46,702 nucleotides of DNA from Candidatus Niyogibacteria bacterium CG10_big_fil_rev_8_21_14_0_10_46_36 (GTDB lineage Bacteria > Patescibacteriota > Minisyncoccia > 1-14-0-10-42-19). How positions within the stretch are numbered: position 1 is the first letter of the stretch; every line of letters begins with the position of its first letter. The DNA is taken from assembly GCA_002772995.1 (NCBI GenBank), contig PFCO01000009.1, positions 91,406-138,107 of the forward strand, written 5' to 3'. Below, in pieces: positions 18,494 to 38,774 of this stretch. Under the pieces are notes generated by a model that ran no database searches, was not told the DNA's origin, and was given only the letters and a program-made list of their open reading frames with translations. The position numbers and the translations under genes are program-made.

Positions 18494-19744
18494 TCAATCT
18501 CTCCGGAAAAAAGAAAGTATATTTTTCAAAAAACTAAGAAAGCGGAACCAAAAGTCCTTTTCATGCTGAGAGAGGGTAATAAATATTTCTTTTGAGGGAA
18601 CTTCAAGCGATATCGTACGGCTATCATACCCTTCCCGCGTAACGGTAATGGCAATGCTCCTCCCACGATACGGAAACGCGAAAAAACCGTTTTTTTTACT
18701 CACAACACTACCGTATGGGTGCGCGACAAGCGCTCCTTCAACCGGCCTATCAAGCGTATCTTTTACATAGCCGGATATTGTTTCCGGTATAAAATATTCG
18801 CGCATCACCTCAACCGACGCCTTTGGCGCGCCATCTTCACGCCAAAGGGCGGTAGACCCGCCATATCCCGTCCAGTAATTCACCCCAACAACTTCGGGCA
18901 TCGCTATGAGTTCCTTAAACGCGTTTTGTATCCATTGCGCCTGCTCCCACTCCTGCATCACACCATGAACATCCGGCACCGGCACTCCAAACTCACTTAA
19001 CACCACCCGTCCACCGCTTTGGCGTGCAATCGCTTTAACATCCGCCACAAGGCGCGCCGGAGAAGAAACATAGTGATCTATAGCAACAATGCCTCCAAGC
19101 ACTTCAGTCGTTGGTTCGTCCATGATAAGGCGCGCAATATCTCCGTTCATAGAAAGATAATTGGATGTTACGCGTTTTCCTATGCGCTCAAATGAATCTT
19201 GCGTCGTTTTATATTCATCCATCAAAAATTTTCTGTGCCCCTGCGCATCTCCCGTATTGCGGGGATCACCCGGTCCGCCGTTTTCACATTCCGGGCAGGC
19301 GGTAAAAATATCTCCATCCTGAAAGAGACTTTTATTGTCCAATATAAATTTTTTTGTTTTTTGTATGTGCTCTTCTCGCGAAATAGCGGGATATTCAAAC
19401 CATCCTTCCCATCCGGACCAATTACCGCGGAACCACACCGATAAGCCATGCTGCCGGGCAGCATTCACCCACATACGAAGAACAGGAATAAACTCTTTAT
19501 CGTATGGAGTGCCTATAGCAACATGGGTAGCGCCAATACCCGCTATCTCCCGCACCTGCTGGTCTATGATTTGCAAAAAAGAAGCGTCGTAGAGCATCTG
19601 CCGGGCAAGATCGCGTGAATATTTTACCGTATCAACTGACTGTACGCTCCAAAAAAAAGCGTCGGAAGCATTCTCAACATACGCGAATCCCGCGTACGGA
19701 ACCGCTAACAATATCGCTATTCCTATAAAAAATGGGGCTTTCAT
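18494..19744 (-). CDS. Secreted glycosidase-like TIM-barrel protein with regulatory beta domain
   Basis: 416 residues. A signal peptide or anchor covers 1-22. The body (about 35-318) reads as a GH-A-clan-like TIM barrel: HVAIGTPYD, GLSVWFRGNWSGWEGWF, FTACPECENG (candidate acid/base E152 or E154), AIDHYV, VVLSEFGVPVPD (candidate nucleophile E251) and VVGVNYWTGYGG. Residues 322-392 form a carboxypeptidase-regulatory-like (CarboxypepD_reg) beta sandwich (ISGYVKDTLDRPVEGALV). The C-terminus is an aromatic amphipathic stretch that could lie on a membrane. As the last gene of the glycan operon it may trim or transfer the glycan outside the cell. The ATG at 19744 follows the previous stop by one base. 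Confidence 0.7.
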   Translation of the reverse strand: MKAPFFIGIAILLAVPYAGFAYVENASDAFFWSVQSVDTVKYSRDLARQMLYDASFLQIIDQQVREIAGIGATHVAIGTPYDKEFIPVLRMWVNAARQHGLSVWFRGNWSGWEGWFEYPAISREEHIQKTKKFILDNKSLFQDGDIFTACPECENGGPGDPRNTGDAQGHRKFLMDEYKTTQDSFERIGKRVTSNYLSMNGDIARLIMDEPTTEVLGGIVAIDHYVSSPARLVADVKAIARQSGGRVVLSEFGVPVPDVHGVMQEWEQAQWIQNAFKELIAMPEVVGVNYWTGYGGSTALWREDGAPKASVEVMREYFIPETISGYVKDTLDRPVEGALVAHPYGSVVSKKNGFFAFPYRGRSIAITVTREGYDSRTISLEVPSKEIFITLSQHEKDFWFRFLSFLKNILSFFRRD

Positions 19745-19745
19745 T

Positions 19746-21359
19746 TTATTTTTGTTTTCCAAGCGTAGGCGTCGTATTCAGCTCGGGAAGATATTCCGGG
19801 CGTAATTCGTATACATCGGCAAATGGGAACGACTGGACTTTGTCATATGCCCCAAATCCCGGCACGCGGCTTACCAGCCGCCAAGTAAGGTCTTCTTCGG
19901 AATATGTACGCATAACTATCCAACGCGCCCACCGGTCCGGCGACTCAGTAGCGCTTTCCCAATACACGCCCGTCCCCTCATGAATGAATTTTTTCATAGG
20001 AAGGCCTGACGAAAAGATAATCGCATCGTGAGAAGCGGCGGCGACCAGAATAAATCCTTCTTTATCCGCGGCGTTCTCGGCAAGCCATGCACTCACCTCG
20101 GTTACATTTTTCTGGCTTGAGCCGACTCGCGCGTCGTCAATGGTTACAGCATCCCCACTTGAAAATTGGAAGAATGCCACAAACACCAAAAGCCCGATGA
20201 TAATAAACCGCGCTGGCGCCGCCCGAGAAACAAGATAACCGATAAAAATGGCGAATGACGGCATAAGCATCACACCGTAGCGCACATTAAAAAGCGAATC
20301 ACCAGTGAGGCCCTGCACATAGAGCACGGAGTGCCCCAAATAAAGCGCGAGTATATTGAAAAAGAGCGGCGCCAACAAAACAAACGTTGAAATACGCGTC
20401 GGAAAACGGAGGTTCTTTGAGAACCAAAGAACAACCGCCCCCAAAAAGCCCATAAGAACCGTAAGAGCCCCTGAATTATACGCAAGCGCGTAAAAATATA
20501 CCTTGGCAGAAAACCAAACATTACCCTTCGTAGCAAGCAAGCCCGCCGCATCAATTTGGTCTTGCTGTGCTTTTGCCGAATACGGACCGAAAATAAAATA
20601 GAGCGCGTCCTTAAAGATAAGCTGGTTCCATAAAAGCCATAAGAGAATCCCGAACCCCCCAAGCGTAAAAAATATAACAGCAGTCCCCTCAGCAGGACGA
20701 AACCCCTTTTCAAACAGGACATAGAACACCACTAAGGCACCCGCAAATCCGAGCAAAAACCACCCGTCATAGCGAACAAGCGTAGAAAGCATTATCCATG
20801 CCGCCCCCTGGATGAGATACATAATGTTGTCGTCCTGGAACCACCGCATAATAAAATACGCCGCGGTCGTCATCGTAAACAGCAACAAAAGCTCCGTCAT
20901 CGCGGTTGACTGAAGATAAAGCACATTCAAGTTTGCCGCAAACACGGCAACACCGACAAACCGCCCCAATAGTCCCACTCGAAGACGCCGCAAGAATAAG
21001 TAGATTACAACACCCGTTCCCACAAACCCAAACATGCTCCACAAGGCACCCGCAAGTCCCGAATGCCACATAAAATCATTCCAAATCAACGGCGCCATTA
21101 ACAAGTGCGTAAGCGGAAGCCACACGCTTCCCAATTGCGCGAGTCCCGGCTTTAATCCCTCAACCACGCGCCGACCGATATCCAAGTGCGAGCGCGCGTC
21201 GTTATAGGCAAGCCCCAATCCGTTCTGGTAGTACGCCCAGAAACTGATGATTGAAACAACGCTCAAAACAAAAACAACCAAAAACACACCGTGCTCTTCA
21301 AAAAACGCATGGATACGGGATGACATATTTTTTGTTATGGGTATATTAATGCTCGTCAT
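19746..21359 (-). CDS. Multi-pass membrane glycosyltransferase, GT-C / ArnT-PMT-like
   Basis: 537 residues with about 11-12 transmembrane helices in the N-terminal 400 residues and a soluble C-terminal tail of about 130 residues. The first extracytoplasmic loop has YNDARSHLDIGRRVVEGL...LGSVWLPLTHLLMAP. The acidic residues here sit where GT-C enzymes of the GT39/GT83 type carry their catalytic Asp. Such enzymes transfer sugars from polyprenyl-phosphate donors on the outer face of the membrane. The gene overlaps its upstream neighbour by 14 bp and is 1 bp from the glycosidase-like gene. Sugar and acceptor are unknown. Confidence 0.75.
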   Translation of the reverse strand: MTSINIPITKNMSSRIHAFFEEHGVFLVVFVLSVVSIISFWAYYQNGLGLAYNDARSHLDIGRRVVEGLKPGLAQLGSVWLPLTHLLMAPLIWNDFMWHSGLAGALWSMFGFVGTGVVIYLFLRRLRVGLLGRFVGVAVFAANLNVLYLQSTAMTELLLLFTMTTAAYFIMRWFQDDNIMYLIQGAAWIMLSTLVRYDGWFLLGFAGALVVFYVLFEKGFRPAEGTAVIFFTLGGFGILLWLLWNQLIFKDALYFIFGPYSAKAQQDQIDAAGLLATKGNVWFSAKVYFYALAYNSGALTVLMGFLGAVVLWFSKNLRFPTRISTFVLLAPLFFNILALYLGHSVLYVQGLTGDSLFNVRYGVMLMPSFAIFIGYLVSRAAPARFIIIGLLVFVAFFQFSSGDAVTIDDARVGSSQKNVTEVSAWLAENAADKEGFILVAAASHDAIIFSSGLPMKKFIHEGTGVYWESATESPDRWARWIVMRTYSEEDLTWRLVSRVPGFGAYDKVQSFPFADVYELRPEYLPELNTTPTLGKQK

Positions 21360-22927: not shown

Positions 22928-23899
22928 TTACTTCTTATTATAATGAATGCGCTTGGTAGACCACGCCATATTCCATCGCGCCGTAAGATGTTTTTCTACG
23001 AATAATGCTTTTATCTTACAATATTGATTCACAACAAAAATATAACCCGCAAGAATGGGGTGACGTAAGCATACCTTGATCATTCGCGGAAGAATAACTC
23101 GCCGGGGAATGTGGTACTCATACGATACAAGCGCCTCAGAGAAATGACGCTTCATACGCGCCGGGGCAGACGCGAAGCGCGTATTTTGGCGAATCTGGTC
23201 TTTCATATCCATCGGCGAACGGTAGTAGACAACAGCTGACCGTACATACCGGTATGCGTATCCTTTCGTAAGACAGCAAAAATACGTATACATATCATTG
23301 GCAATCATATCCTCGGGAACTGTTATTTTTTTTATCAATTCCTTTTTATACGCAAGAATGCGCCCATCAACGGAAAGCACATTATTCCCCCCACGAAGAG
23401 TTTTGCGAAGCGGTATGTATGCTTCCGCTGTCAGATTAACCGCCTTTTCGGTAAATGTATTCGCTTGTACCGGCGTGGGGTGTCCACCACACATGCCAAC
23501 GCCTTTTTCAAATATAAGCGGCGCGATAATGTCACGAATTACATACGGATGCGCGAACACAACATCCGCATCTGACTGCACCAATATATCACTTGTAACC
23601 ACCGCATATAGTTCATTCAAGCGTGATGACTTGCCTATACGCTCAGAATGCTCCCATACTTCTACCCGCGCATCAGGAAGCGCGCGGGCATATGCAACCG
23701 TGTTATCCGTAGAGCCGTCGGAGATAATGATAACACGTTCAAGCACAAACCCCATTTCGCGCTGAATGAATACCGACTCAAGAAAAGCAGTGATGTTTTT
23801 TTTCTCATTGAGCGCGCTTACCGCAACCGTTACTGTGGGTAGTGTGTTTTCTTGGCGCATCACATGTCGGTATTTTGTTGTTGGATGTGTCGTTATCAT
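22928..23899 (-). CDS. Family 2 glycosyltransferase (paralogue A)
   Basis: 323 residues with a GT-A fold. TVTVAVSALNEKKNITAFLESV is the nucleotide-binding start, IIISDGSTDNT the sugar-nucleotide loop and VQSDADVVF the DxD metal site. A conserved distal region, YYRSPMDMKDQIRQNTRFA, recurs in the two other GT2 proteins of this operon. The C-terminus has a hydrophobic stretch (HPILAGYIFVVNQY) suited to membrane association. It most resembles the next gene upstream (TLPTV...LERVIIISDGSTDNT compared with LKEIVVVSDGSTDKT), so the two look like tandem duplicates. Donor and acceptor unknown. Confidence 0.88.
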   Translation of the reverse strand: MITTHPTTKYRHVMRQENTLPTVTVAVSALNEKKNITAFLESVFIQREMGFVLERVIIISDGSTDNTVAYARALPDARVEVWEHSERIGKSSRLNELYAVVTSDILVQSDADVVFAHPYVIRDIIAPLIFEKGVGMCGGHPTPVQANTFTEKAVNLTAEAYIPLRKTLRGGNNVLSVDGRILAYKKELIKKITVPEDMIANDMYTYFCCLTKGYAYRYVRSAVVYYRSPMDMKDQIRQNTRFASAPARMKRHFSEALVSYEYHIPRRVILPRMIKVCLRHPILAGYIFVVNQYCKIKALFVEKHLTARWNMAWSTKRIHYNKK

Positions 23900-23900: not shown

Positions 23901-24827
23901 TTATTTTTTTACTAAGGTTTTTGATGATGTCGCGGGCTTCCATGCGAAAGCAGCATCTTTTTGCATGCGCGAACTTATTTTGGCAAAGCAATACATTCCA
24001 AGATAACCGCAAAATAAGACGGGGTGCTGGATGGCATGCTTTACAATAATACGCACCGTTGTCATAAGCGGCAGTTTATACGCGCGCTCCACGCTCAAAT
24101 TAGAAAAATAAGATGACATTCGGCGCTCACTTTGGAAAAAGCGCGTACTGCGTGATAAATGATCCTTAAGCGTCTGCGGCGCTCGGTACACCACTCGAGC
24201 GCGTGGCTCATAATAAAATCGCAACCCCTGCTCTTTACAATAAAAATATGAATACGCGTCTTCGCCAAGCACAGGAGGCCATTTGATTGTTTTTGCAAAA
24301 TCGCCTCGAAACGCGCGGTTGTCTCCGTGGCATAAATACACATTATCTCCATCGTTCATGCGCGCGAAGATATCCTGCTTTATTTGGTCACTAAAATTAA
24401 TAACGCGCTCAACAAACGTTTCTCCCAAAAGCGGTATGCGCTTACCGCTCACAATGCCTATATCTTTGTCGTGCAGGAACGGCTCTATCATGTACTGGAT
24501 ATACATATCATTTTCCGGAAGAATATCAGCATCCAGCATCACAAGAATATCACCAGAAAATTCCTCAATAATTCTATTTTGTGCCTTATACGCCCCACTG
24601 CGCACCGGCATGACAACAAGACGCACCCGCGCATCCTTTGCGTGTATGCCGCTTACTATTTCGTTCGTTTTGTCCGTGCTTCCGTCAGAAACAACAACAA
24701 TTTCTTTCAACACAAAATTCCGCTCTTTTTGCGATAAAAGCGCTTTCAGTAAGTAGCCGACATTTCCCTCTTCATTGTAGGCGGGGATACCTACCGACAC
24801 TGTTTTGATGTTATTTTGTTCTTTCAT
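23901..24827 (-). CDS. Family 2 glycosyltransferase (paralogue B)
   Basis: 308 residues from ATG 24827 (a second ATG at 24839 is possible). GT-A motifs are VSVGIPAYNEEGNVGYLL, IVVVSDGSTDKTNEI and VMLDADILPEND (DxD). Later come the GEDAYSYFYCKEQGL segment, where GT2 enzymes carry the catalytic acidic residue, and VVYRAPQTLKDHLSRSTRFF, shared with paralogues A and C. The C-terminal HAIQHPVLFCGYLGMYCFAKI may sit on the membrane. The gene overlaps the kinase-like gene upstream by about 17 bp and precedes paralogue A by one base. Confidence 0.88.
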   Translation of the reverse strand: MKEQNNIKTVSVGIPAYNEEGNVGYLLKALLSQKERNFVLKEIVVVSDGSTDKTNEIVSGIHAKDARVRLVVMPVRSGAYKAQNRIIEEFSGDILVMLDADILPENDMYIQYMIEPFLHDKDIGIVSGKRIPLLGETFVERVINFSDQIKQDIFARMNDGDNVYLCHGDNRAFRGDFAKTIKWPPVLGEDAYSYFYCKEQGLRFYYEPRARVVYRAPQTLKDHLSRSTRFFQSERRMSSYFSNLSVERAYKLPLMTTVRIIVKHAIQHPVLFCGYLGMYCFAKISSRMQKDAAFAWKPATSSKTLVKK

Positions 24828-25821
24828 ATGAAAAATCATGCACAAACAAAAAATAAGAACGCGCCGTCTTATATTCTTTCCGTGAACGGCTGCTTAACCA
24901 ATGTAATGCTATCCAATACGATACCGCTTTAAAACGCAAAAAGTGTACTTTGTCCTTCTGTATACCCCGCATTGCCTTGCCCGACAACAACCGCTTAACA
25001 AACAACGGCTCGCGCCAATACGAAGCAATCGTGTGGGCAATCTCAAATTCGGGATATGTAATGCCCGAAACTTGAAAATCAATAACTGATATGCGCTTGC
25101 CATCATAGCGTACATTGTCTCTGTTCAAATCGCGATGGATAAGCCGGTACTCCGGAGCAACAAATAATACCGCCGCGTGCCTTATTATCGAAGCGCTTGC
25201 GCGAATCATAATGAATAAGAATGATGGATACCGCAGAAGCGCTCTGGTGGCAATCATTGGAAATGTCGCAAAAAAATACAAGCGCTTGCGCTGAATTAAT
25301 ACGCGCTTAGAAATGCGCGGCATTACATGATCAACATAGGCAAAGTAAGACATGGCCTTATCCAAAACATCTAAGCGCTTTTGGGGAGACAATACGCCAA
25401 TACACGCGCCTTTTGCCTTTTCTACAAGAAACAACACTCGGGCCGGAGTACATTCGGCGTATATCAGCTTTGGAATGTAAATATCTCCAAACTGTTTTTT
25501 GAGGCGTTTTTTTTGCTCAGAAGAAAGCGCGTGGAACGCCCGATAAAAATGTATCTCGTTTTTCATTAAATGGCGCGCTATGCACCATGTTCGCCCATAC
25601 CATTGTTTTGCAAACGCCTCTTTGCCTGCAGCATTCCGATAGAGCGCTATGGCGTATACACTTGTGGGCTTCTCGGGCTCGCATACCCGTATCAAGCGGT
25701 ACCCGCTGATATGTGCCGGGAACATATCCCCAGGAACGACTCGCGGCACGGTAAAAACCAAACGAACTATGCTTATACACAGCGCTTCTATTTTTGAAAT
25801 TGTGCTTACAAGATATGTCAT
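24811..25821 (-). CDS. APH/choline-kinase-fold phosphotransferase-like protein
   Basis: 336 residues. The C-terminal lobe carries the protein-kinase-like catalytic motif RLIHRDLNRDNVRYDG (H229, R230, D231, N236) and the metal-binding DFQ (D248) in ISVIDFQVSG, as in aminoglycoside phosphotransferase and choline kinase relatives. The N-lobe has a candidate ATP lysine (EAFAKQW, K72) and glutamate (KNEIHFY, E89). The long insert around 170-220 contains a hydrophobic, basic segment that may touch the membrane. Embedded between GT2 genes, it more probably phosphorylates a sugar or glycan intermediate than an antibiotic; this is inference from context. Confidence 0.75.
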   Translation of the reverse strand: MTYLVSTISKIEALCISIVRLVFTVPRVVPGDMFPAHISGYRLIRVCEPEKPTSVYAIALYRNAAGKEAFAKQWYGRTWCIARHLMKNEIHFYRAFHALSSEQKKRLKKQFGDIYIPKLIYAECTPARVLFLVEKAKGACIGVLSPQKRLDVLDKAMSYFAYVDHVMPRISKRVLIQRKRLYFFATFPMIATRALLRYPSFLFIMIRASASIIRHAAVLFVAPEYRLIHRDLNRDNVRYDGKRISVIDFQVSGITYPEFEIAHTIASYWREPLFVKRLLSGKAMRGIQKDKVHFLRFKAVSYWIALHWLSSRSRKEYKTARSYFLFVHDFSYERTK

Positions 25822-25822: not shown

Positions 25823-26740
25823 TTACCGTATATTTTTAGTTGATGTATCCACGCTCCACATTGACGTCAGGACCTTTTTTGATTTCTTGCGAAATATGCG
25901 GGTATACACAAATACCAGGGCGTAGGCAGTCATCCGTATAGGGCTCCGCATATATTCACGAAACGCACCATACACAAAAGCTCCAAACGGTATCTTATAT
26001 ACGCTCTGGATATCCACACCAAACCATTTTTGCATCTCGGTACTTGAATATTGGTATCTACTAGACGGTCCTATCTGGTCTTTTATGCTTTGTGGACAGC
26101 GGATAAGGACTTTTGCATCATCAGGACGCGCAAATGTCCCGCCAAGCCGGCGGTTCTCCAGATACATAAAGATATCGCTGTTTACAATGTTTTCGGGCAT
26201 TCGGAATTTTTGTATGTGCGATGTGCGGTACGCCAAACACCGTCCGCTTGCCATCAAATAGTTCTGCTTTTTGTTCCAGGACATACCAATATAATCCACC
26301 GCGCGCACCATACTTGCCATAATCGACTCAAAAAATGTCTCGGGCGGAAGCGGAAGAACACGCGCTCCTATCATGGTGAGCTGTGGGTCTGCTTCAAAGG
26401 CGCGCGCAATATGGTAGAGCGTGTCAGGAAGGAATGTAATATCATCCTGAGTTGATACGAAAATATCGGACTCGGCCATATCAACCATTTGTTTTATCTT
26501 TTTTATCTGGCTTCCGGTGTCTTCGTTCCAATACAGCTCTACATTCAGTTTGCGCAGTTCCGTTTTTATCTCGTCCGTCAAAGGGGTGCGGTCAGCAACA
26601 ATAATAAAACGAAAATCGCCAACACCTTCGGAGGCGCGGATGCTCCGCGCAGTCTCAATAAGAGACCAGCCGCCGTAGCATGTCGGAATGCTTACCGTAA
26701 GCGTCAGTTTTTTATTCTGTTGTTCGGATGTTGTGCTCAT
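25823..26740 (-). CDS. Family 2 glycosyltransferase (paralogue C)
   Basis: 305 residues. LTLTVSIPTCYGGWSLIETARSI opens the GT-A domain, with FRFIIVADRTPLTDEI in place of the usual DGSTD loop and VSTQDDITFLPD as the metal-binding acidic site. The distal IRCPQSIKDQIGPSSRYQ motif matches the other two GT2 proteins of the operon. The altered donor loop suggests a different sugar from A and B. The C-terminus ends in a hydrophobic then very basic segment (FRKKSKK). Tightly linked on both sides (1-base gaps). Confidence 0.83.
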   Translation of the reverse strand: MSTTSEQQNKKLTLTVSIPTCYGGWSLIETARSIRASEGVGDFRFIIVADRTPLTDEIKTELRKLNVELYWNEDTGSQIKKIKQMVDMAESDIFVSTQDDITFLPDTLYHIARAFEADPQLTMIGARVLPLPPETFFESIMASMVRAVDYIGMSWNKKQNYLMASGRCLAYRTSHIQKFRMPENIVNSDIFMYLENRRLGGTFARPDDAKVLIRCPQSIKDQIGPSSRYQYSSTEMQKWFGVDIQSVYKIPFGAFVYGAFREYMRSPIRMTAYALVFVYTRIFRKKSKKVLTSMWSVDTSTKNIR

Positions 26741-26741: not shown

Positions 26742-28025
26742 TTATGTAAATATTTTTTCTTGTTCCTGCCATAACGCGCATGCGATGCTATCCTCCGGCA
26801 TTTCTACATCATTGAATGATATCGGCTCGTCCTTTTTTATGTCGCGTTTTGCTTTACATCCGTCTGTAAGACCCATCGGCAGGAAACGCTTTTCGCGCGC
26901 CGTTTTATAATTATCTATGAGTCCGTAGCAGGTAAATCCGCCGATACCGTCCAGTATCTCGCCTGTTTTTATGTCTCGTTTTGCAACAGCAATAACATCC
27001 GCAACCGGTCCACCTTTCGGAGCAAGCGCGGCATCTTTAAAGAGCACTGCGCGCGCTACCGTCGCCGGCGTTTCTAACGGACTTAAATGGAACGGCGTGT
27101 AAAATACATAAAACGGCCCGTCGCCCATTTTGTATACTTTCATATAGCGCTGAAATAACGGATTGTCGTTGTAGCCGATCACAAATACGCCAAAGCTTGG
27201 TTCAGCTCCCAGAATATAATCCACAAGCCCACCATTCAGCATTTCGTCATGTGAGAACAAATCAATTGCGTCATTCGGATGCTTTGCTGTGGGCCCATAC
27301 ATGCCGCGCCTTCCTACACGAAAACCAGTGGCATTAGCAACCGTTGCCATCTCCATTGCAATCTTTGTGCCGTCAGCGAACGAGGTTATCATCTTCGGGC
27401 GCTGAAAACTCTTTTCCGCAAACTCTTTTTGTGTTTCGGGCGTACGATAATGGTCAAGCAAGCTTTTTATATTACCCGCAAGTACCGGCTTGCATCCGAG
27501 GAACGCGACACGCCGATAAAGATTCATAAGGACCGCGGGCTGGTCGCCATCCATTTGTGTATAGACCACGCCTGCTCCATCTGCCTTTTTCTTCAATAAC
27601 GGCCCGATGGTCGCATCAAGTTCGGCATTTATCAGCACAACATGTTTTTTGTTTTCGATCGCTTTAGTTATAACGCGCGCGCCAAATTCCACCTCTCCGG
27701 TCGCCTCAACTACCACATCAATATCGGGAGACGAACAAAGCAAATCCGGATTGGATGTAATTACCGCCTGCTCCCCACGCACTGCAGTCTGTAATTCTTC
27801 CGGTGTCGTTACTTCGGCAATGTTTTTTGTGTATCCGGCTTCCGTATATGCTTCACGAGCATGCGTAAGCGTCCGGTTCGCGATTACCGCAAGTCGCATG
27901 CCGGCCACGCCCCGCGCTAATTGCAGCGCAAATCCGCGTGCCGCAAATCCCGCGCCAACAAGCCCCACGCGTATCGGCGCATGTTTCTTTTCAAGAATAT
28001 TTAATTGTTCATCAATAATGATCAT
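26742..28025 (-). CDS. NAD(P)-dependent oxidoreductase with C-terminal SAF domain
   Basis: 427 residues. The Rossmann domain starts IRVGLVGAGFAARGFALQLA (GxGxxA), and DIDVVVEATGEVEFGARV is the homoserine-dehydrogenase-like/Gfo-Idh-like core. The C-terminus (about 345-420) is a SAF/AFP-like domain with VIAVAKRDIKTGEILDGIGG and CKAKRDIKKDEPISFNDVEM. Proteins of this architecture are usually annotated only as SAF-domain oxidoreductases; some lie in nucleotide-sugar clusters. Its place directly after the RmlC-like, SDR and cytidylyltransferase genes suggests it reduces or oxidises a keto-sugar intermediate. Exact reaction unknown. Confidence 0.8.
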   Translation of the reverse strand: MIIIDEQLNILEKKHAPIRVGLVGAGFAARGFALQLARGVAGMRLAVIANRTLTHAREAYTEAGYTKNIAEVTTPEELQTAVRGEQAVITSNPDLLCSSPDIDVVVEATGEVEFGARVITKAIENKKHVVLINAELDATIGPLLKKKADGAGVVYTQMDGDQPAVLMNLYRRVAFLGCKPVLAGNIKSLLDHYRTPETQKEFAEKSFQRPKMITSFADGTKIAMEMATVANATGFRVGRRGMYGPTAKHPNDAIDLFSHDEMLNGGLVDYILGAEPSFGVFVIGYNDNPLFQRYMKVYKMGDGPFYVFYTPFHLSPLETPATVARAVLFKDAALAPKGGPVADVIAVAKRDIKTGEILDGIGGFTCYGLIDNYKTAREKRFLPMGLTDGCKAKRDIKKDEPISFNDVEMPEDSIACALWQEQEKIFT

Positions 28026-28034: not shown

Positions 28035-28568
28035 TTATGCCCACATAAACGGCCCCCATGCCTTATCTTTTTCAGAAACATGTTCTACCGAAATCGGCCA
28101 CCGTACAGAAAACGAGCCGTCATCGTATCGCATACCCCGTTCGTGCTCCGGAGAATATGCCGTGTCCGAAAAGTTAGTAAACTCCGTATCGTCCTCAAGC
28201 GTCAAGATCGCGTGTCCCACGCCTTTCGGCATAAAAAGCATACGGTAATCATCCGCGCGGAATGTGAACCCTTCCCATTTTTTATATGTCGGAGAATCAG
28301 GACGCACATCGGTGACTACTTCAAATAGCGCCCCTTTATTGCAACGGGTAAGTTTTGTTTCTGCCCGCGGATGTGTCTGCCAATGAATACCGCGAATCGT
28401 TCCTTTGCATTTCGTGCCGGACACATACCCCTGCGCCAACGTTACATCAATGCCGTTGTCGCGGAATTCTTTTTCGCACCAGGTACGCGCCAAAAAGCCG
28501 CGGTCATCTTCCCGCTTTTCAAGTTCTATAATATACACCCCATCTATTGTTGTCGGAATAAATTTCAT
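28035..28568 (-). CDS. dTDP-4-dehydrorhamnose 3,5-epimerase family protein (RmlC-like)
   Basis: 177 residues, the usual cupin length for this family. Catalytic region GTIRGIHWQ carries the general-base His (family form GxLRGxHxQ). KLTRCNKGALFEVVTDVRP gives the lysine and dimer strands, MLFMPKGVGHAILTLED the beta-barrel segment, and FSDTAYSPEHERGMRYDD the Tyr and the conserved EH.G(I/M)R(W/Y).D stretch. Because the cluster encodes a CTP-dependent sugar activator, the substrate may be a CDP-linked rather than dTDP-linked 4-keto sugar. ATGA overlap with the SDR gene upstream. Confidence 0.88.
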   Translation of the reverse strand: MKFIPTTIDGVYIIELEKREDDRGFLARTWCEKEFRDNGIDVTLAQGYVSGTKCKGTIRGIHWQTHPRAETKLTRCNKGALFEVVTDVRPDSPTYKKWEGFTFRADDYRMLFMPKGVGHAILTLEDDTEFTNFSDTAYSPEHERGMRYDDGSFSVRWPISVEHVSEKDKAWGPFMWA

Positions 28569-29626
28569 GCGCGAATTGATTCTTTTACCCAGTAATACAT
28601 GTCATCAATCTGACCGGTGTCTTTCAGATAATTCATCTGCTTCAGTCGGGAAAACATCCGCGACCGGAATGTTTTTTTATCAAGCCCTATGTCTTCAAAC
28701 AACCGGAACAGCTCTTGTATGCCGAAGCGAACATCTCTTACGCACCGAAATCCGGGCAATACGCGTTCGGCTTTTGAAAAATCAACACGATAACTCCGCA
28801 TGTCGTTGTTTTCTTTATTAAATGTTATCTCCGCCTCGGGCATTACTTCCTGTATAATCGCGGCAATGTTTTTTATCTGATAGTTTGACGCGCTTGAGCC
28901 TATGTTTATTATCTGGCCGCGCAGAGATGCTTCGGGGGCGTGCAGAGCGGAAACCGCCGCATCGCACACATCGCGGATGTGCACAAAAGGCCGCCATGCT
29001 TCTCCATTGCTTTCCATGGTTATTTCGCGATCAACCCAGGCATATCCCGCTAAACTATTCACCGCGAGATCAAACCGCATGCGAGGTGATGCTCCGTACA
29101 CGGTCGCGTTTCTGAAGATAATAGGGGAAAAATCATCGGACGCCATACCAAGAAGCATCCGCTCGTTTTCTGCCTTCATGCGCGCGTATGTCGTTAGGGG
29201 GTTGGGAGATACCGTTTCGTCTACCATCTTGCTTACAAGCCCGTAGACACTGCATGAAGAAAAATAAATAAAACGACTAACGCCTGCCGCGCGCGCGGCT
29301 TCCGCTAAATGCTTTGTTCCTTCACGGCTCACATCCGTTACTCCGCGTGGATTCAATTCGGCTAATGGATCGTTTGAAAATTCCGCAAGGTGTATTACTG
29401 CGTCCGCGCCGACAAGGTCATCTTTTGTAACCATGCGGATATCGCGCACGACGATGCCCAATCCATCTATAGACTCATCTTTGTAGAGTAACGCATCTTT
29501 ATAAAATCCCGCGTCAAGCCCCACCACTAAAAATCCACTCTCCCGAAGCGTCTGGGCAAGCACCGTCCCAATATATCCCTGTATGCCCGAAATGAAAATT
29601 TTTCTTTGTTTTTTATTTATGCTCAT
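28565..29626 (-). CDS. NAD-dependent epimerase/dehydratase (extended SDR)
   Basis: 353 residues. The Rossmann motif is IFISGIQGYIGTVLAQTL (GxxGxxG), the Ser of the triad lies in YFSSCSVYG, and YARMK supplies the YxxxK pair. FRNATVYGASPRMRFDLAVN and AWRPFVHIRDVCDAAV are substrate-binding segments of UDP-glucose epimerase-like nucleotide-sugar enzymes. It lacks the GHTGFKGSW start of CDP-glucose 4,6-dehydratases, so it is probably not RfbG itself. It lies 6 bp after rfbF and overlaps the RmlC-like gene by 4 bp. Reaction unassigned (epimerase or reductase). Confidence 0.87.
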   Translation of the reverse strand: MSINKKQRKIFISGIQGYIGTVLAQTLRESGFLVVGLDAGFYKDALLYKDESIDGLGIVVRDIRMVTKDDLVGADAVIHLAEFSNDPLAELNPRGVTDVSREGTKHLAEAARAAGVSRFIYFSSCSVYGLVSKMVDETVSPNPLTTYARMKAENERMLLGMASDDFSPIIFRNATVYGASPRMRFDLAVNSLAGYAWVDREITMESNGEAWRPFVHIRDVCDAAVSALHAPEASLRGQIINIGSSASNYQIKNIAAIIQEVMPEAEITFNKENNDMRSYRVDFSKAERVLPGFRCVRDVRFGIQELFRLFEDIGLDKKTFRSRMFSRLKQMNYLKDTGQIDDMYYWVKESIRA

Positions 29627-29632: not shown

Positions 29633-30433
29633 TTATTTTTCCCATATGTTCCACGGCGCGCCTTTTTGCCACATCTCCTCTAACACATGCTTGTCGCGAA
29701 GAGTATCCATGGGATGCCAAAATCCATCATGATGGAATCCCGCCAATTCGCCTCTCTCGGCAAGCTTCTGCATCGGTTCAAGCTCCCAGCTTGTATCGTC
29801 TCCGGCAATGTAATCCAGCGCTTTCGGCTCGACCACAAAAAATCCTCCATTGATTCGTATGCCATCATCCTCCGGCTTTTCGCGAAAATTTTTAATGCGC
29901 GTTTGGCCTTTCTTTAAATGAAATGTCCCGAACCGCCCGGGCGATTTTACCGCGGTCACCGTTACGAGCGCCTTTTCGTTTTTATGAAAATCAACAAGCG
30001 CTAGCACATCCACATTACTTACGCCGTCCCCGTATGTCATTAAGAATGTATCGTCCCCTATATACTCGCGCGCGCGCTTTAGTCGTCCTCCTGTGAGCGT
30101 TTTTTCTCCAGTATCAATAAGCGTTACGCGCCAGTCTTCAATGCCGTTTTTAATAACTTCCAATTTTTGATTGAGTACATCAATCGTTACATCGGACTTA
30201 CGGAGAAAATAATTGGAAAAATAGTCCTTGATAACATCCGACTTATATCCGCACAAGATTACAAAATCTTTATATCCAAAATGAGCATACATCTTCATGA
30301 TGTGCCACAAGATAGGTTTTCCGCCTATTTCTACCATCGGCTTGGGACGGACCGCGGTTTCTTCGCTGATTCGCGTTCCGTATCCCCCAGCCAATATGAC
30401 CACTTTCGTGTTTTTCGTATCGTTCGTTTCCAT
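29633..30433 (-). CDS. rfbF: Glucose-1-phosphate cytidylyltransferase
   Basis: 266 residues, close to the usual 257. The nucleotidyltransferase signature is VVILAGGYGTRISEETAVRP with KPMVEIGGKPILWHIMK, and the metal-binding Asp lies in FLMTYGDGVSNVD. DVTIDVLNQKLEV and INGGFFVVEPKALDYI match the subfamily. It makes CDP-glucose from CTP and glucose 1-phosphate, the entry to CDP-linked 3,6-dideoxy and branched sugars. It is second in the operon, 2 bases after the giant multi-module gene. The next enzyme of the classic pathway, RfbG, is not in the window. Confidence 0.93.
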   Translation of the reverse strand: METNDTKNTKVVILAGGYGTRISEETAVRPKPMVEIGGKPILWHIMKMYAHFGYKDFVILCGYKSDVIKDYFSNYFLRKSDVTIDVLNQKLEVIKNGIEDWRVTLIDTGEKTLTGGRLKRAREYIGDDTFLMTYGDGVSNVDVLALVDFHKNEKALVTVTAVKSPGRFGTFHLKKGQTRIKNFREKPEDDGIRINGGFFVVEPKALDYIAGDDTSWELEPMQKLAERGELAGFHHDGFWHPMDTLRDKHVLEEMWQKGAPWNIWEK

Positions 30434-30435: not shown

Positions 30436-33400
30436 TTACGGATTAATAATTGATAAAAATGTATTGCTTGACCTTCTCCAGTCAAAATTCTTCGCCCATG
30501 CAACAGCATTGCCGCTCATGACATTGCGCAACTTTCTGTCACGCATAATGAGCCCTATCCGTTCCGCAAATTCCTTGCTGCTCCCATATGAAACAAGATA
30601 TCCAGTATCTGCGTTTTTTACTGAGTCACGAAGACCCGGCACATCAGACGCAACAATGGGTGTTCCGCAGGCATTCGCCTCTATTGTAGTGATTCCCCAC
30701 CCCTCCATAAGAGACGGATTCACCATAACCCACGCCCTTTGAAGCAAACGGATTTTTTTCTCTTCGGACACGCGCCCTTTAAATTCAACCGCGCGGCTCA
30801 ACCCCAGATCAACAGTAAGACGCTTGAGATACCCCTCTTCTTCACCAGACCCCGCAATGACAAGCCTCGCATCCGGAATGTCTTCTAACACGATTTTAAA
30901 TGCGCGCAATAAGACATCGATCGATTTATATGCCTTCAACCGCCCGAGATAGAGCACCATCGGAACCTCTGATTTTTCTGCTGTGTGTAGAGCATGCGGA
31001 TCAATACCGGGATGGACCACCTCAACGCTTTTTACTTTGAAGCCCAGCTGTTGAATATCGTGCCTGCTTGATTCAGACACCGTGATAAAACGGATATTGC
31101 GGTATACGAACGGCATCATGTCTTTTTCTAAGAAACGCGCGAACATGGAAAGCGGCGCAATAAGCGAATGGCGAAATACATCCTGATGAACGTGATGCAT
31201 CAAACAATATATGGGCACGCCCGCATATATAGGCGTAAAGAACGGAATCCCGTTATGACAATCAACAATCATGTCGTATTTGCCACGAAATCGGAATATA
31301 TAATATAACAGCGCAAACGCGTACACCGTATAAAACCCTCCTCGACGCACTATATGGACGCCCTCAACCATTTCTTCTCCCTTATTCTTTCCATCGTTCC
31401 CGCAAAAAAGTGTTACTGCGTGACCCTCTTTTACCCAATTACGCGCGAGCTGCTCAATATAAAGCTCGGCGCCACCGGCAAATACATGCTTCATGTCGCG
31501 CCAATTAAATACAAGTATACGTTTCCGTCCCGCTTTGAACGGCGGCACCAGTATCCGTCCAAAGAATACGCCAAACAAATCACGCACTGCCTGCCCCACA
31601 AACCGCAGATATGTTTCTGCAACATGCATTATGCTTACAGCCGCGCTTCCAACAGCACTTGATATAAAAATAATGCGCACAATTTCGGCAATAGAGCTGT
31701 GATACGCACTTATTCCAGCAGCCATAACTAGCGCAAACGCAAACGCAACAACAGCATATCTATATTTTTTTAACGCCAGATTGTACATGACAAGCGAATT
31801 AACAACGGTAAAGAGAGCTATCGCAAGTCCATACGTTGTTACATATGGAAGTACAGCAAGCGCCTTCGCGCCAAAAAGAAGCGGCGCAAAAAAAGAGCCA
31901 AGCGGACCAAGTAATATAAATCCGATAGCGCTAAAAATTGCGGTTGCGCCAAATAATATGTGGAATGTCTTTTTAGTATCTTCTCGCAATCCTTCTTCTC
32001 GAGACACAAGAGTAATCATAAACACCGTTGGGAGCGCGCCAAGGAAATATATGATTTTTCCAATAAGAGAAAGGAGCGCATATTCCCCGGCTGCTTGGGG
32101 AGGCAAGAAGTGTTTTACCAAAACAATATCTATCGATAAAAATAAAGTCGCTGAAAGCCCAGTAAGAAGAGCTGCGCCGAAAAACGCGCCTGGAAACTCC
32201 TGGCGCTTATACTGCGTCTCATTTGGCGCATGGTCCATCGTGCGAGCCATAATGATGGTCGCCACAACAGCGGAAAGCGCGATAGATATGGGAATAGAAA
32301 GATATACCAATTCATGAGCGTCAGCGTATACAAACAAAGCCGCGCTTAAAAACTTTATTAGTGCTTCAAGTAATGAAACAATGCCCACTGCAGCAAACAA
32401 AAGCCTCCCCTTAAGATATCCGCGCCCGATTGATGCGAGAATGCCGAATGAAAACACCGGCGTAAACAGAATGAACACTGATATGTTTCCTATATTGAAG
32501 AAGTCTGCAAGAAAAGAAGACGCAATAAGCCACACAATGGAAATACCTCCGGCAATAATAATGCTCCGCGTAATAACTGACGACACAAACGAAGAAATAT
32601 ATTGTTCTTTTTTCTCCGCATGTAAAAATGCGCTTTTGTGATTTACGGTCGTGGACAACGCAGTCATAAAAATAAGAGAGATAGACCAAATCGTATTCAC
32701 AAAGATCACCACGCCGAGTTCTTCAAAATTAAGCACGCGCCCTAAAAATGCATTAAAGAAAAAGTTTATAGCATTTGAAGCCATCATGGCGGCAACAAGA
32801 AACGTGGCGCCTGAAAGCGCATGTCCCCACGATCTGGGGAGGTGCTGGCTTATCGCGTGTAATCCGCCTGACCCAAGAATGCGGATACGCGCCACCACAA
32901 GCGCAAGCATTCTTTGTACAAATAACATTTGGTCAGGAGCAACGACATGCGCATATACCAATGACCAAGCGCGTTCTATTGCCCGAAGCCAGGGAGACGC
33001 AAAATGCAAAACCCCTACATACATCGGAGGACTTACCCATGGCAAATTATTACGAAAAGGGTTTTCTTCAGAAGCAGAAAGAGCGGGGATTGTATTGGAG
33101 GCTGTTTGCGTTTTTGGTCCATTTTTTGTCTTTTTTAAATGAAGCCCGTGTACTGTTTTTTCCCAAAAGTGAGGCTTTACCATGAGCTGCCAGAGAGCCA
33201 TAACCGCGGCAACGCTCATAAAGAACCAGTATACAGGAATAAGAAACACATATTTGATTACCGACCAATGACCGCGCTTTGCGCATCCGATCATGTAATA
33301 ATAAAAATAAAGAAAATTTCCAAAGATAAGAGAAAATCCGGCCATATAAAAAATAACGGACGGATAGATCGACTCAATAGTAGACCCAACAAGAGCATAT

Positions 33401-35283
33401 AACGCAAAATACGAAATAGTAGCGACCCATAAGATTGGGTTGATAAGCATAAACGCAACCTTTCCTCCTACATTCAACTGGAATAAGAACATGTGTCCTC
33501 CTGTTGTTTTCCAAAACGCAAATGGGTTGCGCATATGCACAAGATAGCTTTGAATATATCCTTTTATCCACCGCGAACGCTGACGCACCCAATTCCACGC
33601 GTTACTATTCGCCTCTTCATATGTTATTGAATCAATAATTGCCGTGCGGTACCCATGGCGGAATAAACGAGCGCCCAGATCACAATCCTCGGTTACATTA
33701 AACGGGTCCCACCCGCCGAGCTCGCGAAGATCTTGCGCGCGAAAGTGATTGCTTGTTCCTCCAAGCGGAATATATGTATTTACCGACTGCAATCCGGGAA
33801 GGACAACATCAAACCACAACGAATATTCCGCAGTAAACAGGCGCGTTAACAGGTTTTGGTTGTGATTATAATAATTTAACTTCCCCTGAAGGCATTTTAC
33901 CTGGGTGGAAACTTGCCGAAAGCCAAGAAATGCTTTCTTCAATTGCTTTGGTTCGGGAATGTCTTCGGCGTCATAAATAACTAAATATTCCCCACGAGCA
34001 AGAGAAATCCCGTAATTGCATGCCTTTGGCTTTGTCTTTGGTTCCGAATGCGGAACAATAATGGTCCGCACATAGGACGGAAGGTTCATAGACCCGGCTA
34101 CCTGGATTGTTTCCGTATCATTTTCTTCAAGAAGTAACAGCACATCTAACTTGTCTTTCGGCCAATCAAGCGCGCCCATCGCCTCCAAGAAGCCGGGAAG
34201 AATTTTTGCTTCTTTATATAGCGGGCAAAGCACCGTATAAACAGGAAGGTCTTTTTCAGACACACAAGACAATTGGTCATCTGAAAATACTATCTCGGGG
34301 GGAGTGCGCAAGCTTCGCGCAACCAAAAAAAGATTGAAAAACACATCAAAAAAATAGAGCGCTGACAAGCACGCCATAAGACCAATGGCCGCATACAAAG
34401 GCGACATAATAAAGGCGCCGGCAAGCAATATAAGCACGAATGCCATGACCACCTTCTGCCAAAATGTTGTTGTAATAATGGCAGACCTGGAATACGGTAA
34501 TGTGCTGTGCGTGATAAAACGCTTTCCTTTGTACGCATAGCCCGCACCGATCATAGAAGGCGGGTTTTCGGCAAGAATCCTGAATGGTTTTTTCTTACGA
34601 AATTTCAACGCGAACGCATTCCATCCGATTTCCGCCATCGCTGAGAGCATGTGTATTTTTGATTCACCTTCCGCGCGCTCCTGGAATATAAAATCAATGG
34701 TTCCGATACGATATCCTGCTTCGCGCGCGTTTATTAAAAATTCGAGATCAAATGTCCATGGTGACGGGTCTATGGTGATTTCTTTTATGACTTGCGTGCG
34801 GAATACTTTTAGGCCCGACTGCACGTCACACGAAAACCCATGAAGTACGCGGCCAAATACAAAGCGGAATGTCTTGCTGGCAATTTTGCGCATAATGCTC
34901 AAATCTTTTTCTATACGATCAGCAACAACAATGTCGACCTCACCCCCCTGTATCGTCTGCATCATGCCCGGTATGCATTCAGGAATATACTGGAGATCGG
35001 CATCTATCATACAAGTAAGCTCATATGATGCGTACGCGAATCCCTCAAGCAATGAAAATGCCTTTCCGGGTCTTCCCTTTTTTATATGAAGCTGCACCGG
35101 ATATGTAAGAGCAAGTTCTTTTATCCGCTCGCGTGTTTCGTCGGTAGAATGATCATCAATAAAAATAACCTCATATGATATTCTATGAGGCCCCAATGCA
35201 CTATGGATACGCTCAACCAGAGGCCGAACATTTCCTTCTTCATTCAGCGTCGGTACGACTATGGAAATTGCCGTTTTTGTCAT
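30436..35283 (-). CDS. Four-module glycan assembly polypeptide: GT2 + processive-type GT2 + Wzx-like flippase + GT4
   Basis: 1615 residues in one uninterrupted frame. Module 1 (about 4-235): DPM1-like GT2 with ISIVVPTLNEEGNV, FIDDHSTDET (43-48 acidic loop) and IDADLQYIPE. Helices at about 275-320 follow. Module 2 (about 345-700): processive-type GT2 with LCPLYKEAKI, IYDAEDIPEP (438-441), TEDCDLG (531-533), QRSRW (568-572) and C-terminal helices, like cellulose synthase-type enzymes. Module 3 (about 825-1230): Wzx/MATE-type polysaccharide flippase, about 12 helices. Module 4 (about 1252-1615): GT4 with AGGAELYIEQLA, VVHPGID, LYLGRLKAYKSID and EGWGITTIEA. ATG 35281-35283 is chosen; it lies 22 bases from the predicted transcription start. 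First gene of the operon. Confidence 0.92.
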   Translation of the reverse strand: MTKTAISIVVPTLNEEGNVRPLVERIHSALGPHRISYEVIFIDDHSTDETRERIKELALTYPVQLHIKKGRPGKAFSLLEGFAYASYELTCMIDADLQYIPECIPGMMQTIQGGEVDIVVADRIEKDLSIMRKIASKTFRFVFGRVLHGFSCDVQSGLKVFRTQVIKEITIDPSPWTFDLEFLINAREAGYRIGTIDFIFQERAEGESKIHMLSAMAEIGWNAFALKFRKKKPFRILAENPPSMIGAGYAYKGKRFITHSTLPYSRSAIITTTFWQKVVMAFVLILLAGAFIMSPLYAAIGLMACLSALYFFDVFFNLFLVARSLRTPPEIVFSDDQLSCVSEKDLPVYTVLCPLYKEAKILPGFLEAMGALDWPKDKLDVLLLLEENDTETIQVAGSMNLPSYVRTIIVPHSEPKTKPKACNYGISLARGEYLVIYDAEDIPEPKQLKKAFLGFRQVSTQVKCLQGKLNYYNHNQNLLTRLFTAEYSLWFDVVLPGLQSVNTYIPLGGTSNHFRAQDLRELGGWDPFNVTEDCDLGARLFRHGYRTAIIDSITYEEANSNAWNWVRQRSRWIKGYIQSYLVHMRNPFAFWKTTGGHMFLFQLNVGGKVAFMLINPILWVATISYFALYALVGSTIESIYPSVIFYMAGFSLIFGNFLYFYYYMIGCAKRGHWSVIKYVFLIPVYWFFMSVAAVMALWQLMVKPHFWEKTVHGLHLKKTKNGPKTQTASNTIPALSASEENPFRNNLPWVSPPMYVGVLHFASPWLRAIERAWSLVYAHVVAPDQMLFVQRMLALVVARIRILGSGGLHAISQHLPRSWGHALSGATFLVAAMMASNAINFFFNAFLGRVLNFEELGVVIFVNTIWSISLIFMTALSTTVNHKSAFLHAEKKEQYISSFVSSVITRSIIIAGGISIVWLIASSFLADFFNIGNISVFILFTPVFSFGILASIGRGYLKGRLLFAAVGIVSLLEALIKFLSAALFVYADAHELVYLSIPISIALSAVVATIIMARTMDHAPNETQYKRQEFPGAFFGAALLTGLSATLFLSIDIVLVKHFLPPQAAGEYALLSLIGKIIYFLGALPTVFMITLVSREEGLREDTKKTFHILFGATAIFSAIGFILLGPLGSFFAPLLFGAKALAVLPYVTTYGLAIALFTVVNSLVMYNLALKKYRYAVVAFAFALVMAAGISAYHSSIAEIVRIIFISSAVGSAAVSIMHVAETYLRFVGQAVRDLFGVFFGRILVPPFKAGRKRILVFNWRDMKHVFAGGAELYIEQLARNWVKEGHAVTLFCGNDGKNKGEEMVEGVHIVRRGGFYTVYAFALLYYIFRFRGKYDMIVDCHNGIPFFTPIYAGVPIYCLMHHVHQDVFRHSLIAPLSMFARFLEKDMMPFVYRNIRFITVSESSRHDIQQLGFKVKSVEVVHPGIDPHALHTAEKSEVPMVLYLGRLKAYKSIDVLLRAFKIVLEDIPDARLVIAGSGEEEGYLKRLTVDLGLSRAVEFKGRVSEEKKIRLLQRAWVMVNPSLMEGWGITTIEANACGTPIVASDVPGLRDSVKNADTGYLVSYGSSKEFAERIGLIMRDRKLRNVMSGNAVAWAKNFDWRRSSNTFLSIINP

Positions 35284-35311: not shown

Positions 35312-35340
35312 ATTATTACATATTTTAAGTCGTTTGTCAA
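35312..35340 (-). promoter_or_regulatory. Promoter of the glycan operon
   Basis: Minus-strand TTGACA, 17 bases, AATAAT; start at about 35305, 22 bases before the giant gene. No comparable promoter or terminator is seen until 18.5 kb, so it probably drives all 12 genes. Confidence 0.7.
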
Positions 35341-35400: not shown

Positions 35401-35480
35401 AAGATGAACGCTAACCCAGGGGAAACTATTCCGCTAAAAGCGGAATACGGTTTAGCGTTCATCTTCAGGGTCTTTTTTGT
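35401..35480 (+). ncRNA. Two-tier hairpin leader (possible attenuator or small RNA)
   Basis: Perfect 14-bp arms (35401-35414, AAGATGAACGCTAA, with 35452-35465) enclose a second hairpin ATTCCGC/GCGGAAT (35428-35446) and an internal loop. A T-rich stretch TCTTTTTTGTTT follows (about 35470-35481), so transcription may stop here before the crotonase gene. The arms start about 8 bases after the predicted start site. No known riboswitch consensus recognised. Confidence 0.55.
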
Positions 35481-35593
35481 TTGGGAAAATAATACCAAAT
35501 ATACTAAAAGATGTCAATATTCCGGACCTGCCTCCCTTGCAATTATTCTTTTCTTGGAGTATAACGGTTACAAAAAATGTTTTTGGAGGGGCT

Positions 35594-36430
35594 ATGAGAT
35601 ACGGGGAGAAGCCGTTCAGAACCTTACAAATATTAGAGGAAAATAAATTCTTCACTATTACTATATCCAACCCGCCGGTTAATGCGCTCTCAAAGGAAGT
35701 GCGCCACGAATTGCGAAGAGCGCTTGAGTGCGCATCAGGCAAAAGCTGGGTAGAAGCAATTTTCATACGGGGCGAGCATAATTTTTTCAGCGCAGGCGCA
35801 GACATACATGCGCTCAAAGAAATCTCAGAAAAAAAAGAAGCGGGCGCCGGAAGGTCGTTTTCCCGCTGTGGCCAAGAACTTGTACGCTACATTCAGAAAT
35901 ACAAAAAGATATATGGCAAGCCCATCATCGCCCATATAAATGGATATGCATTGGGCGGAGGACTAGAACTTGCCCTTGCATGCAATACTATATTTGCCGA
36001 AGAAAGAAGCATTCTCGGGTTTCCTGAAGTAACGCTCGGACTTATACCGGCCTGGGGAGGAACAATACATCTTTTCTCACGATGCAAAAACCCACCGGAT
36101 GCCCAAAAAATGATAACTGAAGGTACGCTCATTCCCGCAAAAGAAGCGCTTCGTATGGGAATCATAGACAGCATAAATGTCTTCGGAAATGATTCAATGC
36201 TGCCGATGCCCGACCTGCACACGCCCGCACCGCTTGCGAACTTTTTTCTTAAAAAAATATATTTCGGAAAAAAATTTAATGAAAGCATCGCGTACGATTT
36301 TGCATTTGACCGCGAATCTATGGCGTTTGACTTTCTTGCATCTCAAAATGACGCCCGCGAAGGCATAAACGCGTTTCTTGAAAAACGCGAACCGCAATTC
36401 AAACATCTGGAGATGGACATAAAAAAATAA
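35594..36430 (+). CDS. Enoyl-CoA hydratase/isomerase (crotonase) family protein
   Basis: 278 residues, the normal crotonase length. A GGAGGG ribosome-binding site lies 3 bases before the ATG at 35594. The oxyanion-hole motifs are FFSAGADIHAL (about 65-74) and ALGGGLELALACN (119-131). The two acidic catalytic positions of hydratases are both present: E125 and E145 (GFPEVTLGLIPAWGG). The fold acts on CoA thioesters; the actual substrate is unknown, since no fatty-acid degradation set is present here. The nearest CoA-type genes are the thiolase/DUF35 pair 3 kb downstream on the same strand. Own promoter, structured leader and terminator. Confidence 0.9.
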   Translation: MRYGEKPFRTLQILEENKFFTITISNPPVNALSKEVRHELRRALECASGKSWVEAIFIRGEHNFFSAGADIHALKEISEKKEAGAGRSFSRCGQELVRYIQKYKKIYGKPIIAHINGYALGGGLELALACNTIFAEERSILGFPEVTLGLIPAWGGTIHLFSRCKNPPDAQKMITEGTLIPAKEALRMGIIDSINVFGNDSMLPMPDLHTPAPLANFFLKKIYFGKKFNESIAYDFAFDRESMAFDFLASQNDAREGINAFLEKREPQFKHLEMDIKK

Positions 36431-36436
36431 AAACTA

Positions 36437-36468
36437 TCCCCTCCTCGCGCAATGAGGGGATTTTTTGT
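36437..36468 (+). terminator. Terminator after the crotonase gene
   Basis: TCCCCTC / GAGGGGA arms with loop CTCGCGCAAT, then TTTTTTGT. Confidence 0.9.
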
Positions 36469-36495
36469 GGACAAAAAAATATGTTGTGCTATTTT
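36468..36495 (+). promoter_or_regulatory. Possible promoter of the phosphoesterase-glycosyltransferase pair
   Basis: TGGACA, 16 bases, TATTTT directly after the crotonase terminator. Confidence 0.4.
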
Positions 36496-36528
36496 TAAAA
36501 CGGTTCATTAAAAACAAAGGAGAAGACA

Positions 36529-38321: not shown

Positions 38322-38349
38322 AAAAATCCCGCACGATGCGGGATTTTTT
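38321..38349. terminator. Bidirectional terminator
   Basis: AAAAAATCCCGCA / TGCGGGATTTTTT perfect arms, loop CGA. T tracts on both strands serve the plus-strand glycosyltransferase and the minus-strand small membrane gene. Confidence 0.9.
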
Positions 38350-38351
38350 AT

Positions 38352-38774
38352 TTATGATCTTCGTTTTTCCGTTAGCTGGAGAGTTTTTAAAGGAATAATA
38401 CCTAATGTATACGCACACCGGTCGTGAAAATTAAACCAGCGTCTGCCTTCGGGAGCTTCCCACACTTGGATTACCGGGTCCCAATACGCAAAGTCTTCGC
38501 CGCAATCCTCACAGAAATGATCCTGGTAGATGTTCTTTTTTGCTACTGCGTATATAGCCATTACCGCACATATAAAACAAAACACTCCGGCATATGCTGC
38601 GTATGCGTGCGACTCCAGATACCAAAACACGGATGCAGAGAATAGCAGCAAAACGCTTGATGCAAAAAAGACCTTCATATACGCAATCCAGCGCATATAC
38701 CTGTCTCTATTGTTCTTGTGCCGATTGTTTGAGGGATATAGTATTCTATTCCATGCGATTTTCCCCTTCTTCAT
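38352..38774 (-). CDS. Small membrane protein with zinc-ribbon-like tail (paralogue 1)
   Basis: 140 residues from ATG 38774, preceded by GGAGG. A basic N-terminus (to about 30) precedes two transmembrane helices (FFASSVLLLFSASVFWYL and YAGVFCFICAVMAIYAV). The C-terminal cytoplasmic part has FCEDCGEDFAYWDP followed 30 residues later by HDRCA, giving C-x2-C...H-x2-C, a likely zinc site. No named family recognised. The same layout recurs in the overlapping gene upstream (38771-39154). ATGA coupling. Confidence 0.7.
   Translation of the reverse strand: MKKGKIAWNRILYPSNNRHKNNRDRYMRWIAYMKVFFASSVLLLFSASVFWYLESHAYAAYAGVFCFICAVMAIYAVAKKNIYQDHFCEDCGEDFAYWDPVIQVWEAPEGRRWFNFHDRCAYTLGIIPLKTLQLTEKRRS

Follow-up and report, generated by a model that had tools for sequence, protein, structure and literature searches.

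A recurrent four-module protein joining glycosyltransferases and a MOP-type flippase in Patescibacteria

The window (the whole stretch of DNA that was analysed, 46,702 nucleotides from Candidatus Niyogibacteria bacterium CG10_big_fil_rev_8_21_14_0_10_46_36) contains a minus-strand frame of 1615 codons without a stop, translated from 35283 to 30436 (Table 1). A TTG at 35340, 57 bases upstream of the ATG, would lengthen the protein by 19 residues to 1634 aa, with the same stop at 30436. Because the -35 hexamer of a promoter-like site begins with this TTG, the ATG at 35283 is the better start, and it is also the one that had been chosen in the original prediction. About one promoter-like match of this quality is expected by chance within the 361-base region. 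The length of the open frame, together with the four domains that it encodes, rules out a chance product.

Table 1. Features of the four-module gene and its operon (positions in the window)
Feature	Position	Strand	Details
Four-module protein, whole	30436..35283	minus	1615 aa, single frame; order repeated in at least 17 other complete proteins
Promoter-like site TTGACA-17-AATAAT	35312..35340	minus	upstream of ATG; consensus match alone, 11/12 positions
Module 1, GT2 of polyprenyl-phosphate sugar synthase type, residues 1-232	34588..35283	minus	PF00535
Linker 1-2, residues 233-261	34501..34587	minus	28-34 aa among complete proteins
Module 2, QxxRW-type GT2, residues 262-718	33130..34500	minus	PF13641; two N-terminal and about three C-terminal membrane helices
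Linker 2-3, residues 719-821	32821..33129	minus	22-104 aa across complete proteins; window copy longest
Module 3, 12-helix MOP-superfamily flippase, residues 822-1225	31609..32820	minus	AlphaFold, Foldseek, Polysacc_synt in homologues
Linker 3-4, residues 1226-1253	31525..31608	minus	26-35 aa among complete proteins
Module 4, GT4 glycosyltransferase, residues 1254-1614	30442..31524	minus	PF13439 and PF00534
Operon gene 2, glucose-1-phosphate cytidylyltransferase	29633..30433	minus	TIGR02623, 395 bits, cut-off 300
Operon gene 3, NAD-dependent sugar epimerase/dehydratase	28565..29626	minus	PF01370
Operon gene 4, RmlC-like 3,5-epimerase	28035..28568	minus	PF00908
Operon gene 5, DRL/SAF oxidoreductase	26742..28025	minus	PF21135
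Operon gene 6, GT2	25823..26740	minus	neighbour cluster
Operon gene 7, APH-like kinase	24811..25821	minus	PF01636; cluster in 10 loci among those listed
Operon gene 8, GT2	23901..24845	minus	neighbour cluster
Operon gene 9, GT2	22928..23899	minus	PF00535
Operon gene 10, probable GT-C transferase, 525 aa, about 12 helices	21346..22923	minus	homologues in at least 28 loci; NF047440 putative glycosyltransferase, below cut-off
Operon gene 11, probable GT-C transferase, 537 aa	19746..21359	minus	homologues in at least 33 loci, up to 64% identity
Operon gene 12, secreted 422-aa signal-anchored protein	18494..19762	minus	C-terminal CarboxypepD_reg-like domain, below cut-off; in at least 19 loci

Pfam profiles applied to the whole chain match GT2 at residues 7-136 and 349-575 and GT4 at residues 1270-1593. 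Module 1 (GT2n) is by homology a GT2 of the DPMS/GtrB/ArnC type. Its closest solved relative is dolichol-phosphate-mannose synthase 5mlz (E 1.9e-24), which is also its fold match, and GtrB and ArnC come next. Module 2 (GT2p) is nearest to BcsA by sequence (E 2.6e-12) and matches BcsA and the Chlorella virus hyaluronan synthase in modelled fold; judged by its motifs and this fold, it is a QxxRW GT2 of the BcsA/HAS type. The model of module 2 has about five membrane helices. This odd number is hard to reconcile with module 3 starting in the cytosol, unless one of the helices is interfacial. Module 4 has MshA, PimA and PglA-type enzymes as structural relatives and carries the E-x7-E motif of a GT4.

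Module 3 is more divergent: residues 822-1225 have no Pfam match at 0.01 in the whole-chain scan, and the module scanned alone yields a sub-threshold MatE match (E 0.0035; 17.5 bits versus a cut-off of 24.9). Among homologous flippase modules, 11 of 38 match Polysacc_synt (best E 2.3e-12), and the flippase of a three-module copy (G331) scores above the Pfam cut-off. When the flippase profile was compared by sequence with solved structures, only chance matches came up, such as orexin receptor constructs, and fold comparison was therefore used for this module. The AlphaFold model (mean pLDDT 90.5) has 12 membrane helices, and Foldseek matches it (E about 1e-7 to 1e-6) to MATE proteins, to MurJ and to WzxE, the flippase of lipid III. 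As modelled, module 3 is a 12-helix MOP fold. Three basic residues (R849, K977 and K1076 in the numbering of the fused protein) are nearly invariant, and the loop charges suggest that both ends of the module, and hence the GT4, lie in the cytosol.

Thus, the architecture that had been read from the letters alone is upheld in all its parts: one uninterrupted frame with four complete modules, in the order DPM1-like GT2, cellulose synthase-type GT2 with DAED, TED and QRSRW motifs, Wzx/MATE-like 12-helix flippase and GT4. Profiles identify three of the modules and the structure model identifies the flippase. Every one of the 18 complete four-module proteins retains the DxD, DAED, TED, QxxRW and E-x7-E motifs, and a decayed module was rejected on this basis.

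The same four-module order, proposed as something to look for in other Patescibacteria, is indeed found there. A census with module HMMs counted at least 18 complete four-module proteins including that of the window, so that at least 17 occur in other genomes. Three more fall outside this count: two (L061 and L074) are cut by contig ends and one (L089) has a divergent first module. In a sample of 384 genomes of the same class, four-module frames are present in two (G268, 1584 aa; G064, 1562 aa) and three-module frames in three (G055, G331 and G135). Further copies come from a scan of named genomes (among the matches listed) and from a phylum sample of 380 genomes. The hosts are nearly all named Patescibacteria, including Roizman-, Woese-, Gottesman-, Ames-, Davies-, Levy- and Doudnabacteria; this predominance holds among the matches listed, for scan patterns drawn from module 2 alone. 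Six aligned proteins are 46-52% identical to the window protein. In the contig scan, the single window protein gave no match and an alignment-based query did.

The fusion has no strong match among genus and family mates of the window genome, yet it is present in more distant relatives. The original prediction would have been undermined by homologues that are always separate genes in close relatives. This possibility was rejected, as the close relatives have neither a strong match nor the GT-C gene of the operon.

Partial and split versions of the protein keep the same module order, whether they have four, three or two modules or are unfused. A GT2p-flippase-GT4 form occurs at twelve loci (L043-L045, L078, L079, L081, L170, L171 and L177-L180), and in the first three of these a stand-alone DPM1-like GT2 gene adjoins the three-module gene. 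A GT2n-GT2p form occurs at L046, L047, L175, L187, L102 and L172; at the last two, flippase-GT4 is encoded as its own gene. The flippase is a separate nearby gene at L047, L049 and L090, and at L090 the GT2p and flippase genes overlap. At L053, GT2n is joined straight to the flippase and the GT4 is in the adjacent gene. Module 2 is also found alone or paired with GT2n only. At five loci, of GT2n-GT2p-GT4 form (L075, L076 and L086) or GT2p-GT4 form (L088 and L094), the flippase module is missing, and no flippase was found in flanks of up to 8 kb. In the other direction, L117:7965-13682 encodes 1905 aa with a fifth, C-terminal APH-type kinase domain, which is 17% identical to the separate APH-like kinase of the window operon.

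Frame breaks and related fusions were also seen. In two Patescibacteria (L080:7962-12651 and L085:397-5068), the chain lies in two frames, through a true split or a frameshift; the break comes after the first membrane helices of module 2 and before its catalytic part. L065 has a frame break within the same family. GT2-GT4 fusions that lack modules 2 and 3 are present in other genomes of the phylum (L185:944-2902 and L186:3736-5646).

In a quick tree of module 2, with SH-aLRT as its only support measure, a single supported clade of 34 rows holds the majority of the fused forms, and the P-F-G state changes at least nine times. Module distances correlate for GT2p and flippase (r 0.45), flippase and GT4 (0.58) and GT2p and GT4 (0.29). 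GT2n and GT2p distances are uncorrelated (Mantel r 0.08), and module 1 may accordingly have been exchanged, to judge from these sequence distances.

The fused gene is the first of 12 operon genes that are separated by gaps of at most 9 bases. The operon encodes CDP-sugar enzymes, further GT2s and two PMT_2-like membrane proteins. PMT_2 is matched by 8 of 27 members of the gene-10 family and by 5 of 26 members of the gene-11 family, the window copies being without a match; these family matches point to GT-C enzymes, and both genes probably encode such enzymes. Profiles of the two families gave no credible match to solved structures. Among the loci listed, homologues of gene 11 (33 loci) and of gene 10 (28 loci) are always downstream of the anchor gene and never upstream, and most of the related loci have them. 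The product of gene 12, for which no solved relative was found, is possibly a glycoside hydrolase. The 537-aa GT-C protein is missing from 22 relatives. Because genus and family mates lack it and have no strong match to the fusion, the operon has the appearance of an accessory island.

Elsewhere, the window genome encodes two Bac_transf phosphoglycosyl transferases, on other contigs, and another Wzx-like protein, which makes a second lipid-linked route probable. Attachment by LytR-CpsA-Psr proteins was rejected, because the genome has no PF03816 match. Just after the operon, 15981-17918 encodes an acidic protein that is secreted and has SpaA-like and peptidoglycan-binding domains. On the plus strand, 35477-41290 encodes an enoyl-CoA hydratase-like protein, a thiolase and an OB-fold partner protein, which are unexpected in a reduced genome. 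A small cytochrome b5-like domain protein is encoded at 44751-45206.

The frame, module identities, repeated order and operon context were obtained directly. The recurrence of the protein suggests that building and export of a surface sugar chain are linked in one molecule. We consider it somewhat probable that this membrane protein assembles the lipid-linked sugars of a surface glycan, exports them and feeds GT-C enzymes on the outer face. Module 1 would load a sugar onto polyprenyl phosphate at the inner face of the membrane, modules 2 and 4 would lengthen the lipid-linked glycan on the cytosolic face, and module 3 would carry the lipid-linked product across. The two operon-encoded GT-C-type enzymes would then use the flipped sugar outside. 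The activities, the choice of the lipid-linked sugar to be flipped and the hand-over between modules are what we infer in this scheme.

Several observations argue for such a scheme. The closest solved relatives of module 1 are polyprenyl-phosphate sugar synthases, module 3 is folded like MurJ and WzxE and has the conserved basic residues, GT-C homologues are found downstream of the anchor gene, and the loop charges place the GT4 in the cytosol. The loci at which the same modules are encoded separately or in smaller fusions (L043-L045, L047, L049, L090, L102, L172 and L053) form a Rosetta-stone series. Finally, a system consisting of a polyprenyl-phosphate sugar synthase, a MATE-family flippase and a GT-C enzyme has been characterised (PMC11127046).

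Other observations argue against the scheme: five loci have no flippase, module 2 has an odd helix count, GT2n does not track GT2p, and the genome probably has a second lipid-linked route. Also, processive synthases of the QxxRW type move the polymer that they make across the membrane without the help of a flippase.

The original prediction went further, to a membrane-bound assembly line with fixed stoichiometry. It had the module identities and their order right. The loci without a flippase, the independence of GT2n from GT2p and the helix count of module 2 limit its reading. Coupling of synthesis, flipping and further glycosylation is plausible. Fixed stoichiometry would follow only if the chain stays uncleaved. 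In a single-chain assembly line proper, the glycosyltransferase modules would hand product to the covalently attached MOP flippase, which would couple cytosolic synthesis with translocation; we regard this as tentative and rather unlikely. Direct hand-over from a glycosyltransferase to a flippase in a single chain was found described for no glycan pathway in the open-access literature.

The plainest rival to a protein that builds and exports lipid-linked sugars is gene packing without coupling, to which we give a minority chance. Operon neighbours would have been fused through stop-codon loss in small genomes, and the modules would act as if apart, with no channelling. The many partial forms, with several independent gains or losses and the repeated P-F-G changes on the module-2 tree, are consistent with packing, as are the range of linker 2-3 from 22 to 104 aa and the additional kinase domain of L117. 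However, the module order never varies, linkers 1-2 and 3-4 stay at about 30 residues across distant lineages, and fused forms make up most of the 34-row clade.

Alternately, module 2 might be a processive synthase that makes and extrudes a homopolymer, with the flippase, GT2n and GT4 merely attached to it for a separate lipid-linked decoration. Its closeness to BcsA in sequence and to BcsA and hyaluronan synthase in fold, its conserved DAED, TED and QxxRW motifs, and its existence alone or with GT2n only all fit this idea. However, fewer C-terminal membrane helices are modelled for module 2 than BcsA has, and neither a co-polymerase nor an export partner was recognised among the operon genes. 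We consider this explanation unlikely.

An assembly or annotation artefact that joined separate genes is highly improbable: the window is from a draft assembly of 11 contigs and three members of the family (L065, L080 and L085) have frame breaks, but genomes recorded separately hold at least 18 complete copies in a single frame, which rejects it for the class as a whole. Given the copies outside the window genome, a local assembly error is ruled out as a general explanation.

By analogy, the protein and its operon resemble the three-component systems of extracytoplasmic glycosylation, such as GtrA/GtrB/Gtr and Citrobacter ORF15/ORF14/ORF12, the latter with a MATE-family flippase and GT136 (PMC11127046). 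Those systems encode a polyprenyl-phosphate sugar synthase, a flippase and a GT-C transferase together, and the locus described here may do the same: synthase and flippase are recognised by homology or fold, and the probable GT-C component through PMT_2 in family members rather than in the window copies. In contrast to those systems, synthase and flippase share one chain with two more glycosyltransferases, the two GT-C-like genes are distant from known families, and the synthase is a DPM1/ArnC-like GT2 rather than of the phosphoribosyl type.

The locus is also like Wzx/Wzy pathways in having a Wzx-like MOP flippase within a glycan operon with several glycosyltransferases. It differs in that the flippase is fused to glycosyltransferases, and no initiating phosphoglycosyl transferase is encoded in the locus. 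Module 2 shares its motifs and catalytic fold with BcsA, PgaC and hyaluronan synthase, but has fewer modelled C-terminal helices, and is attached to an N-terminal DPM1-like GT2 and a C-terminal flippase. MprF likewise combines a lipid synthase and a flippase in a single chain; its domains are unrelated, and its substrates are aminoacyl-phospholipids, not glycans.

Each part of the protein belongs to a known family. In the open-access literature, neither the four-module order nor a natural fusion of glycosyltransferases to a MOP flippase was found.

To our knowledge, the cell-surface chemistry of ultra-small bacteria is poorly known, and the locus described here is a recurrent, patchily distributed surface-glycan locus in such organisms. 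The two widespread membrane protein families encoded beside the fusion (19746-22923; about 30 loci among those listed) are probably new GT-C enzymes, as predicted from their sequences. The recurrent natural fusion, together with its split and partial versions, provides a direct test system for whether a flippase receives its cargo by free diffusion or by hand-over from a glycosyltransferase.
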